NCBI GenBank assembly: GCA_012837465.1
Contig: DURG01000169.1
Coordinates: 1 to 32,077 of the forward strand
Direction: 5' to 3'
DNA length: 32,077 bases
Source of the DNA: Propionibacterium sp.
Lineage (GTDB): Bacteria > Actinomycetota > Actinomycetes > Propionibacteriales > Propionibacteriaceae
This document shows, piece after piece, positions 27,095 to 30,918 of the stretch. The position numbers and the translations under genes were made by a program. Position 1 is the first letter of the stretch, and the number at the start of each line of letters is the position of its first letter. A model generated the notes under the pieces. That model was given only the letters and a program-made list of their open reading frames with translations, ran no database searches and was not told the DNA's origin.

Positions 27095-28834
27095 TCACCG
27101 CTCGGAGCGGTTCAGTGCGCTCAGGATCGCCTTCATCGAGGCCGAGGTGATCGACGGGTCGATGCCGACGCCCCACAGGACCTCCGCGTCGTCGCCCTCG
27201 CCGATCTCGCACTCGACGTAGGCCGCGGCCTGCGCGTCGCCGCCGGAATCCAGCGCGTGCTCGGCGTAGTCCAGCACCCGCACGTGCGCGCCGGCCTGGA
27301 CGAGGCCGTCGACGAAAGCGGAGACGGGGCCGTTGCCCTCGCCGTGGATGCCGACTCCCTGGCGCTCGGGCCCGTCCACTGTTGCGTTGACGGCGAACGA
27401 ACCGTTGCTCGACGTGGTGCCGGCGCTGGTCAGGCGCCACGGGCCCTCCGACAGATACTCGTCGTTGAAGATGTCGTAGATCTCCTGCGGGGTGATCTCG
27501 GAACCGGTGGTCTCCGTGTGCTGCTGCACGGCGCGGCTGAACTCGATCTGCAGGCGGCGTGGCAGGTCCATCTTGAACTCGGACTTCAGCAGGTAGGCCA
27601 TGCCGCCCTTGCCCGACTGCGAGTTGACGCGGATGACGGCCTCATAGGTGCGGCCGACGTCGTGCGGGTCGATGGGCAGGTACGGCGCCTCCCATGGCAT
27701 CTCGGTGACGGCCTTGCCGGCCTCCTCGGCGACGTACTCCAGGTGCTCCAGGCCCTTCTTGATGGCGTCCTGGTGCGAGCCGGAGAAGGCAGTGTAGACC
27801 AGGTCACCCGAGTACGGGTGGCGCGGGTGCACGGGCAGGCCGGTGCAGTATTCGACGGTGCGGCGCACGTGGTCGATGTCGTGGAAGTCGAGCTGCGGGT
27901 CCACGCCCTGCGTGTACAGGTTCAGGGCCAGCGTCACCAGGTCGACGTTGCCGGTGCGCTCGCCGTGGCCGAAGAGGCAGCCCTCGACGCGGTCTGCGCC
28001 GGCCATCTGGCCCAGCTCGGCCGCCGCGACTGCAGTGCCGCGGTCGTTGTGCGGGTGCAGCGACACGGCGACGTTCTCGCGGTGCTTCACGTTGCGGATG
28101 AAGTACTCGATCTGGTCCGCGTAGGTGTTGGGCGTGGAGCGCTCGACCGTGGCAGGCAGGTTGAAGATGATCTCGCGGTCCGTGGCGGGCTGCCACACGT
28201 CGGAGACGGCGTTGCAGACCTCGACGGCGAAATCGGTGGGCGTCTGGGTGAAGATCTCCGGGGAGTACTGGTAGCCGAACTCGACGTCGCGCAGGTACTT
28301 GTCGGCGTACTTCATCACCATCTCGGTGCCGCGCACGGCCATGTCCACGCACTCCTTCTCGGAGATGCGGAACACGACGTCGCGGAACAGTTGCGCCGTC
28401 GCGTTGTACATGTGGATGGTCGCACGCTTGGCGCCGACCAGCGACTCCGCCGTGCGGCTGATGAGGTCCTCGCGGGCCTGCGTCAGCACCGAGATCGTCA
28501 CGTCGTCGGGGACCCGGTCCTCTTCGATCAGCTGGCGGACGAACTCGAAGTCCGTCTGCGAGGCCGACGGGAAGCCGATCTCGATCTCCTTGTAGCCGAT
28601 CTCGACCAGCAGTTCGAACATGCGCATCTTGCGCGAGGGGGTCATGGGGTCGATGAGGGCCTGGTTGCCGTCTCGCAGGTCGGTCGACAACCAGCGCGGT
28701 GCGTGCTCGATGCGCCTGCTGGGCCAGGTGCGGTCCGGTACGTCGACCGGTACGAAGGGGGTGTAGCGGTGCACCGGCATCCCGGTGGGCTGCTGGACCG
28801 GCTTGGGCTGCGGGCGGTGGTTGATCTCAGTCAT
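27095..28834 (-). CDS. leuA: 2-isopropylmalate synthase
   Basis: [68 protein letters not shown]; regulatory LeuA dimer C-terminal domain. Confidence 0.96.
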
Positions 28835-28841
28835 CGTCAAA

Positions 28842-28925
28842 ATCTCCTGGGCTGGGGGTGTGTGCCAGACACGACAAGCACCGCAGCGAGGAGATCCGGC
28901 TCAGAAGTTCTGGGCCTCGCTGCGG
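28842..28925 (-). promoter_or_regulatory. leuA leader RNA: competing hairpin and anti-SD pairing
   Basis: Perfect 10-bp pair CCGCAGCGAG (28925-28916) / CTCGCTGCGG (28890-28881); ATCTCCT (28895-28889) complementary to the leuA SD AGGAGAT (28848-28842), overlapping the second hairpin arm by 2 nt. Confidence 0.7.
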
Positions 28926-28954
28926 CAGCCAAGGAGCAGGTTGTGCCATGCCAC
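28901..28954 (-). CDS. leuA leader peptide (M)AWHNLLLGCRSEAQNF
   Basis: 17-codon ORF GTG GCA TGG CAC AAC CTG CTC CTT GGC TGC CGC AGC GAG GCC CAG AAC TTC TGA with three consecutive Leu codons, 66 nt upstream of leuA. Confidence 0.8.
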   Translation of the reverse strand: MAWHNLLLGCRSEAQNF

Positions 28955-28961
28955 GAGCGAA

Positions 28962-28989
28962 ACAATAGCACCGGGGGCGGCAGCGTCAA
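28962..28989 (-). promoter_or_regulatory. leuA promoter (leaderless start of leader peptide)
   Basis: TTGACG (28989-28984)-N16-TATTGT (28967-28962)-N7-GTG (28954); TGC precedes the -10 (extended -10). Confidence 0.7.
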
Positions 28990-29018: not shown

Positions 29019-29885
29019 CTACTTGACCGAGCCTGCGGTCAGGCCGCCGATGAGACGCTTCTCGATGATGCCGAACAGGATGGCCACCGGCACGATCGCG
29101 ACGAGGGCAACCGTGAACAGGTACTGCCAGTCCTGGACGTACAGGCCGAGGAACCGCGGCATGGACACCGTCAGCGGCTGGAGGCTGTTGTCCCTGACCA
29201 GGATGAGGGCCGCGGCGAACTCGTTCCACGAGTTGACGAACACGAACACGATGGCGGTCACGATGCCGGGCCACACGAGCGGTAGCGAGATGCGGAACAT
29301 CGTCTGCAGGCGCCCGAGGCCGTCGATGAGGGCTGCCTCGTCCACCTCCTTGGGCACCGAGGCGAAGAACGCCTGCATGATCCAGATCGCAAAGGAGAGG
29401 TTGAACGCGGCGTTGATCAGGATCAACGCGCCCCAGACCGCGTAGCCCTGCCAGCCCTTGAACTCCTGGAACAGGCCGACGGCCAGCACTGTGGGCTGGA
29501 GCATCTGCGTGCAGAGCACCAGCAGCAGGAAGACGAGGCGGCCGGGGAACCGGAAGCGGGCGATGTAGTAGGCGGCCGGGGTCGCCACGATGAGCACGAG
29601 GATCGTCGCGCCGAAGGCGATGACGGAGGTGGCGAGCAGCGACGACGCCGGGTTGACCTCGGAAGTCCACACGTCGAGGTAGTTCTGCCAACGGGGTTCT
29701 GCCGGGAAGTAGTCCGGCGGGATCTTGGTGACCTCGAGGCGCGTCTTCAGCGACGTGATGAACATCAGCAGGTATGGGAAGCCGAAGAACAACATGACGA
29801 CCAACGCGCCGATGATGGTGAGGATCAGGTTCGGCTTCTTGTCGATGCCGCCGCGGAGCTTGTGTTCAGACTTGACCTTCGCCAT
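29019..29885 (-). CDS. Carbohydrate ABC transporter permease (MalG-type)
   Basis: EAALIDGLGRLQTMFRISLPLVWPGIVTA EAA loop; 6 TM segments. Confidence 0.92.
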   Translation of the reverse strand: MAKVKSEHKLRGGIDKKPNLILTIIGALVVMLFFGFPYLLMFITSLKTRLEVTKIPPDYFPAEPRWQNYLDVWTSEVNPASSLLATSVIAFGATILVLIVATPAAYYIARFRFPGRLVFLLLVLCTQMLQPTVLAVGLFQEFKGWQGYAVWGALILINAAFNLSFAIWIMQAFFASVPKEVDEAALIDGLGRLQTMFRISLPLVWPGIVTAIVFVFVNSWNEFAAALILVRDNSLQPLTVSMPRFLGLYVQDWQYLFTVALVAIVPVAILFGIIEKRLIGGLTAGSVK

Positions 29886-29888
29886 GGC

Positions 29889-30836
29889 TCAGGCCACCTC
29901 CTTCGTGGGCTTCACGATGATCAGGTAGATCGCGATGATGACGAGGCAGAACATGAAGTTCAGTACCGACAGCGCCGAGGAGACGCCGGGGCCGAGGTTC
30001 GACTGGTACTCGAACATCAGCGTGGTGGTGATGTGCCCGGAGTGGTATCCGGGGGTGTCCTGCAGGATCCTCAGGATGGGCAGCGAGTTGAACACGTTGA
30101 TGATGTTGATCAGCGCCGCGGTCGCCACCGCGGGGCGCAGCAGGGGCAGCACGATGTGCCAGTAGCGCTGCGGGGAGTTGGCGCCATCGACGTGCGCGGC
30201 CTCGAGCACGTCGCCCGGGACGGCCTGCAGGCCGGCGAGAATGGTGTAGGTGGTGAAGGGCAGCGACACATAGATGGCCACGAACACGGCCACCCAGAAC
30301 GCGGAGGTCGGGTCCTTGGTCCACGCCTTGGCGGATTCGAGGATGCCCGTGTCGACCATCAGACGGTTGAACAAGCCGACGTTCTGCTCCAGGCCGTAGC
30401 GGAACACGGTGGCCGTCATGACCACGGAACAGGCCCACGGCAGGATGATGAACAGGCGGATGAACTTGCGGCCGCGGAACGGCTTGTTGAGGAACTGCGC
30501 CAGCGCGAGGCTGAGGATCACGGTGACGATCACGACGATGACGACCCAGACAACAGTGTTGAGCAGGATGCGCGAGATCGGCACGCCCGGGAAGGTCAGT
30601 GCCCCCGCTGGACCGAAGTAGTTGTCGAGACCGACGTTCTCCGTACCGCCGATGCCGAAGCGGTTGTACTTGAAGAACGAGGTGTAGATCATCAGGCCGG
30701 CCGGGTAGAGCACGACCCCGACGATCAGGATCAGCGTCGGCAACAGCCAAGGCAGTGCTCGGAGGGTCTCCCAGCCACCGGAGATCTTCCTCTTCTTGGT
30801 TTGGTTCACCATCTGTGGTGTGGCGGTCAACGACAC
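29889..30836 (-). CDS. Carbohydrate ABC transporter permease (MalF-type)
   Basis: EAAHVDGANSPQRYWHIVLPLLRPAVATAALI EAA loop; GTG start with upstream GAAGGGA; ATG at 30812 is an alternative. Confidence 0.9.
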   Translation of the reverse strand: MSLTATPQMVNQTKKRKISGGWETLRALPWLLPTLILIVGVVLYPAGLMIYTSFFKYNRFGIGGTENVGLDNYFGPAGALTFPGVPISRILLNTVVWVVIVVIVTVILSLALAQFLNKPFRGRKFIRLFIILPWACSVVMTATVFRYGLEQNVGLFNRLMVDTGILESAKAWTKDPTSAFWVAVFVAIYVSLPFTTYTILAGLQAVPGDVLEAAHVDGANSPQRYWHIVLPLLRPAVATAALINIINVFNSLPILRILQDTPGYHSGHITTTLMFEYQSNLGPGVSSALSVLNFMFCLVIIAIYLIIVKPTKEVA

Positions 30837-30876
30837 CGGCGTCGTCCCTTCTCGATCAAACTGGGAGGAATGTGGC

Positions 30877-30918
30877 GTGATGTGGGGTGGCACGGATGCC
30901 CGTGCCACCCCACATCAC
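30877..30918. repeat. 19-bp perfect hairpin with 4-nt loop between SBP and permease genes
   Basis: GTGATGTGGGGTGGCACGG-ATGC-CCGTGCCACCCCACATCAC. Confidence 0.95.

Follow-up and report, generated by a model that had tools for sequence, protein, structure and literature searches.

A LEU element precedes leuA in Propionibacterium sp. and probably acts by translational attenuation

How might the supply of leucine be passed on to leuA through a leader that encodes a run of leucine codons and carries no U-tract terminator? This question is raised by a locus of Propionibacterium sp. located in a window of 32,077 nucleotides (contig DURG01000169.1), the window being the whole stretch of DNA that was analysed. 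The gene for 2-isopropylmalate synthase, leuA, lies on the minus strand at 27095–28834 with its ATG at 28834. Its identity follows from its score of 830.9 bits with TIGR00970, for which the cut-off is 697.4, and the Pfam domains HMGL-like, IPMS_D2 and LeuA_dimer are present. The Shine-Dalgarno sequence (SD) of the gene, AGGAGAU, is read directly at 28842–28848 (minus). Further upstream, a leader ORF of 17 codons extends on the minus strand from a GTG at 28954 to a stop at 28901: GTG GCA TGG CAC AAC CTG CTC CTT GGC TGC CGC AGC GAG GCC CAG AAC TTC TGA. A sequence-only reading of this DNA had reported a triple-leucine leader peptide 5' of leuA, and the peptide is read directly as VAWHNLLLGCRSEAQNF, with CTG CTC CTT at 28931–28939 (minus). 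The last codon of this run is CTT in 107 of 117 relatives.

A promoter for the leader, missed in the earlier reading, is predicted as TTGACG-16-TATTGT (28989–28962, minus). It is composed of a -35 box, TTGACG, at 28984–28989 (0.1 expected in shuffles) and an extended -10 box, TG-c-TATTGT, at 28962–28967, both on the minus strand. Because the -10 box ends 7 nt 5' of the leader GTG, the leader transcript is predicted to be leaderless. The same arrangement recurs among the relatives: in 83 of 117, a TANNNT lies 6–8 nt 5' of the leader start, against 2% in shuffles, and only 3 of 113 elements have an SD-like 4-mer 5' of that start. Moreover, in 82 of the 117 relatives the start codon found 6–8 nt past TANNNT shares the frame of the Leu run, and in one it does not (82:1:0 over the three frames). 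This conservation of the start-codon frame indicates that the leader is translated, and the predicted start of its ORF is a leaderless one. Directly 5' of the leader, on the same strand, are two ABC-transporter-permease-like genes (window 29019–30908), and the leader seems to be transcribed from a promoter of its own.

The RNA of the leader can form several pairings, all of them read on the minus strand. Helix A joins arm 1, CCGCAGCGAGG (28915–28925), within the leader ORF, to arm 2, CCTCGCTGCGG (RNA CCUCGCUGCGG, 28881–28891), with an energy of -22.8 kcal/mol. It corresponds to the perfect 10-bp hairpin reported earlier after the leucine codons; it is indeed perfect, but its real length is 11 bp, with a loop of 23 nt. 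The leader stop falls 2–17 nt past arm 1 in nearly all relatives. The anti-SD of the earlier reading, AUCUCCU, is also read directly at 28889–28895 and pairs with the SD at -8.3 kcal/mol: ATCTCCT (28895–28889) is the exact complement of AGGAGAT (28848–28842), and it overlaps arm 2 by 2 nt if the 10-nt arm of the earlier reading is taken, or by 3 nt with the 11-nt arm.

Helix A and the anti-SD are thus present as described, but the pseudoknot helix B and a base stem between the Leu run and the SD had been overlooked. The 5' side of the base stem, CUCCUUGGCUG (28926–28936), consists of leucine codons plus 5 nt; it forms 10 of 11 pairs with CAGCCCAGGAG (28844–28854), a stretch that includes the leuA SD core, and the duplex energy is -17.2 kcal/mol. 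In the minimum-energy structure of the free leader, this stem is present and encloses the helix A hairpin. Helix B pairs GCCGGAU (28894–28900) with GUCUGGC (28864–28870) over 7 bp (-11.0 kcal/mol) and crosses helix A, forming an H-type pseudoknot around arm 2. Arm 2 can alternatively pair with the SD region, through GCUG with CAGC and through the anti-SD. The competition of helix A with the anti-SD, as claimed before, is found in the window as two almost isoenergetic folds: a ribosome placed on the first Leu codon leaves the helix A fold lowest in energy (-41.9 kcal/mol); when it is moved 3 nt further, the anti-SD/arm 2 fold is the lowest (-40.6 kcal/mol).

When the leader was shuffled 5000 times with its dinucleotides kept, 19 shuffles contained a perfect inverted repeat of at least 11 bp and 30 contained ATCTCCT. 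As a whole, the leader fold is not unusually stable compared with shuffles (z -0.97). The support for the leader structure is comparative, not thermodynamic. A search of Rfam 15 gave the leader no match at the gathering score and no meaningful match below it. The sole RNA-family match of the window is a tRNA, namely a tRNA-Leu (CAG) at 492–575 on the minus strand.

A leader of this kind, the LEU element, was described in 2005 5' of actinobacterial leuA (Seliverstov et al. 2005, PMC1262725). It encodes a Leu-run peptide and forms a pseudoknot; its Leu codons pair with the leuA SD in a base stem, on which an alternative hairpin can also be built. The window has all four features, the alternative hairpin being seen in the minimum-energy structure of the free leader, and comparison with the text of the 2005 description showed no structural difference. 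The leader of the window is a LEU element, an assignment about as secure as sequence evidence allows. Compared with the 2005 account, many more sequences, controls, members from Propionibacteriales and relatives at leuC and leuB are included here. The element is absent from Rfam; hence, genomes are unannotated for it. Leader peptides of leuA are also listed in papers on C. glutamicum and C. diphtheriae. In S. lividans TK24, leuL1 is a Leu-run leader 5' of leuA, leaderless by RNA-seq and lacking, as here, a typical terminator, and is annotated as an attenuator with no stated structure (PMC8079986); its peptide, MRFGLLLLSCRGEGL, is identical to that of an element recovered in this study (L211).

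The distribution of the element was followed from leuA loci of Tessaracoccus, Arachnia, Propioniciclava, Nocardioides and others, which yielded 83 distinct aligned leaders. A covariance model, R1, was built on 30 of these, with helix A as its only pairs. It gave matches in 188 of 198 Actinomycetes genomes and in 4 of ~182 genomes of other classes (a phylum-wide draw), two of these four being weak. R1, although derived from Propionibacteriales leaders, finds elements across Actinomycetes, and, judged by its matches, the LEU element is nearly universal in this class. With further regions, the set reached 199 elements, or about 117 after removal of near-duplicates. Cutibacterium porci has a LEU element with the leader MSRALLLVCRSETR (L034). 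Two weak model matches (L234, L235), from which the element finder recovered no element, were set aside as apparent chance, and one candidate element (L223) has no leuA, leuB or leuC match downstream. The ordinary fold energy given above would suit a leader that regulates nothing and is conserved for other reasons, e.g., re-initiation or mRNA stability. The class-wide distribution, along with rare codons in the Leu run and the covarying stems, leaves this explanation with a negligible probability.

The earlier reading had proposed a covariance search in relatives, and the search supported one of its pairings and not the other. In 115 diverse elements, each column of helix A is 90–100% paired, with compensatory changes; helix A was required at extraction, and this percentage is therefore biased, while its covariation, helix B and the SD features are unselected. 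At column 5, for example, A-T, G-C, G-T and T-A versions all occur. Relatedness was controlled by a sister-pair test, in which own and cross pairing are compared in disjoint nearest-neighbour pairs with both strands differing. Helix A gave 14:0 in this test. The Leu run plus 5 nt gave 35:11 with the SD (p = 0.0005), and the region of arm 2 with the SD gave a borderline 22:10 (p = 0.05). The 7-nt anti-SD, by contrast, gave 17:10 with the SD, which is not significant, and is perfect (7/7) in only 9 of 186 elements. It was proposed as the pairing that blocks the SD; the pairing conserved in that place is instead the stem of the Leu run with the SD, and comparison of the relatives indicates that the 7-nt anti-SD is a local feature. 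A switch with two states as first written, helix A against AUCUCCU:AGGAGAU with neither pseudoknot nor base stem, can point to the presence of both structures at nearly equal energy in the window and to the rarity of the 7-mer by chance. Given the counts in relatives, it is nonetheless very unlikely.

Helix B has at least 5 bp in 97% of relatives, compared with 50% in shuffles, and its own strands pair far better than swapped strands in leuA-type elements (z = 11). The sister-pair result for helix B in leuA elements is not significant (19:12, with 41 ties), because its core seldom varies between sisters. In a structure-blind MAFFT alignment, helix B ranked first among six-pair helices, with weak covariation: the best helix was 65% paired against 62% in shuffles, with 23 double changes against at most 20. 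This column test is weakened by spacers of differing length, and the swap and sister tests were used instead. In the set of related elements at leuB (see below), all 28 have a helix B of 6–11 bp in very different sequences (z = 8.7), for example GCGAGGCCA:TGGCCTCGC, GAGGGCC:GGCCCTC, CGGTCGGT:ACCGACCG and GTCAGCCA:TGGCTGAC. The strongest support for helix B comes from the swap tests and these leuB-type relatives.

The choice of codons in the Leu run differs from that in the gene. CTT makes up 1.5% of the Leu codons in the leuA genes of relatives but 46% in the Leu run of the leader; CTG, which accounts for roughly two thirds of them in leuA, falls to 14% in the run. CTC and CTT are thus favoured over CTG, and together they spell the anti-SD CUCCUU. 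Codon rarity may add to the stalling of a ribosome.

Folding models were used to see how the position of such a ribosome acts on the SD. In 110 elements, which are related and not independent, folded with the nucleotides under an assumed ribosome footprint blocked, the mean accessibility of the SD was 0.22 for the free leader, 0.40 with the ribosome on the Leu codons and 0.25 with the ribosome at the leader stop. The values for leader-shuffled controls were 0.34, 0.37 and 0.39, respectively. With the pseudoknot imposed (its energy was not computed), covering the Leu run lifts the accessibility by 0.20, against 0.04 in shuffles. For the window itself, the picture is less clear and the modelled opening on stalling is small: the accessibility is 0.13 in the free leader, 0.13 in the stalled state, 0.26 in the stalled state with the pseudoknot imposed and 0.25 with the ribosome at the stop. 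If the pseudoknot is ignored, moving the ribosome one more codon along the Leu run is predicted to favour the closed anti-SD fold. Across the 110 elements, the models agree with an SD that is shut by default and would be opened by a stalled leader ribosome.

The best explanation of this locus is probably translational attenuation, in which the position of the leader ribosome sets the translation of leuA. While the Leu codons are free of ribosomes, the stem that the Leu run forms with the leuA SD would shut the SD. With plentiful leucyl-tRNA, the ribosome would reach the leader stop and cover arm 1, leaving arm 2, together with the nucleotides preceding it, free to hold the SD as its alternative partner. 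When leucine is short, the ribosome would stall on CTG CTC CTT and thereby occupy the anti-SD itself; helix A (arm 1 with arm 2) and helix B, joined in the pseudoknot, would then tie up arm 2, freeing the SD and allowing leuA to be translated. Computation shows the anatomy and its conservation, the covariation of helix A and of the base stem, and an SD whose opening in folding models depends on the state of the leader; from these we infer the stalling, the direction of the response, an action on translation and not on transcription, and the leaderless start. Leucine-dependent translational control of leuA without a U-tract terminator, the core of the sequence-only reading, is therefore retained as the best-supported interpretation, with another lock than the 7-nt anti-SD.

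Control at the level of transcription has to be weighed against this. The leader would then decide between termination and read-through, possibly by means of Rho instead of a U-tract hairpin. There is a precedent in M. tuberculosis, where the ilvB1 leader encodes an LVVI peptide and attenuates transcription (PMC13236596), and transcription attenuation has been suggested for the leuA leader of C. glutamicum (PMC3890552). As the earlier reading had noted, the window leader has no U-tract terminator: the single terminator-like match of the scan sits 5' of the leader start, over the promoter, and no intrinsic terminator (GC hairpin with U-tract) was found between arm 2 and leuA in the window. Among relatives, at least 6 T within 8 nt occur in only 6 of 119 elements, and leuL1 of S. 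lividans likewise lacks a typical terminator (PMC8079986). Furthermore, the SD itself belongs to a covarying stem. Transcriptional attenuation, through Rho or otherwise, is thus rather unlikely here, and the translational mechanism probably applies. With the classical transcription attenuators (E. coli leu and trp; M. tuberculosis ilvB1, PMC13236596), the window leader would share the principle that stalling at cognate codons chooses the RNA structure; it differs from them in having no terminator hairpin with U-tract and in that the competing partner is the SD.

Weaker matches of R1 and a second model, R2, built from the leuB group, revealed elements at other genes. LEU-type elements precede leuC at five loci (L143, L144, L147, L273, L277), all five with the Leu run LLL. 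LEU-type pseudoknot elements precede leuB at 41 loci, 28 of them unique (L149, L151, L155, L216, L217, L221, L224-L226, L229-L231, L233, L245-L248, L250, L252, L253, L255, L256, L259, L266, L268, L269, L278, L279). None of these has a Leu triplet, which is found in 98% of the leuA-type leaders as LLL; their leaders carry Val, Leu and Ile codons instead, e.g., MRSVFVLIDCRGEA, MRHALILRCRGGA and MQWSVRILSCRGGAR. For Val they favour GTA (26 of 44 codons), which high-GC genomes as a rule use little. An IlvE match follows leuB in 15 of the 28; these are almost all of the loci whose sequence continues for about 270 bases or more past leuB. A full-text literature search found no description of such a leuB leader for Actinobacteria, and no leuB-type element was found in the genome of the window itself.

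In 24 of the 28 leuB-type loci (among them L151, L155, L217, L224, L225, L226 and L231), a small ORF of about 27–45 aa, with a product that ends in ...ALDRRDNGGETGH or ...LDLRDGGGERPDDN, separates the element from leuB; two examples were scanned, and neither has a Pfam match. Pairing of the branched-chain amino acid codons with the SD of this small ORF is striking in single cases and was rejected as not significant (z 0.5; for the nearest 8, z 1.3). At one further locus (L276), a LEU-like element with the leader MSRMLVVRRRSGV stands before a small protein that matches, below threshold, the allosteric (dimerisation) domain of LeuA alone (PF08502, E 1.3e-4).

These relatives bear on the proposal made with the first description of the element. 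Its authors doubted attenuation because of codon mutants in S. coelicolor and proposed a binding protein (PMC1262725). In those mutants, changes of the leader codons affected leuA somewhat, not as classical attenuation predicts, according to the account of Craster 1999 given in PMC1262725. The LEU RNA would then be the site of a protein (ML1624 of M. leprae, a DEAD-box helicase-like protein), with the leader peptide incidental; phylogenetic co-occurrence and the non-classical response of the Leu-codon mutants were the reported grounds (PMC1262725), and a large part of the RNA sequence is strongly conserved. Such a site does not account for a reading frame kept at 82:1:0, nor for codons that match the pathway of the gene, with the Leu run at leuA and leuC and Val, Leu and Ile at leuB. 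In addition, conserved unpaired nucleotides are lacking according to the 2005 authors, and the absence from P. acnes that they state for the element (PMC1262725) is weakened by its presence in Cutibacterium porci. The protein-binding proposal is therefore considered improbable: the codons of the leader follow the pathway of the regulated gene, which favours sensing by the ribosome. The puzzling behaviour of the S. coelicolor mutants may be explained, after the fact, by the base stem, which the codon changes also break.

Translational attenuation by a leader ribosome has well-known examples in the erm and cat genes, in which a stalled leader ribosome frees an SD held in a hairpin. The mechanism favoured for the LEU element would share with these the opening of the SD by a stalled leader ribosome. 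It would differ in that the signal is uncharged tRNA and not a drug, in the pseudoknot and in that the codons themselves are the anti-SD.

The mechanism of the LEU element has been unsettled since 2005, and the match of the codons with the pathway argues for ribosome sensing. With a base stem made of the codons and the SD, codon mutants would change the sensor and the lock together. More tentatively, and with a chance somewhat short of even, the LEU-type leaders may make up one regulon throughout Actinomycetes, with Leu runs at leuA and leuC and Val, Leu and Ile codons at leuB; they would be leaderless ribosome sensors with a pseudoknot, in which the hungry codons at leuA are the anti-SD and the position of the ribosome is the switch.
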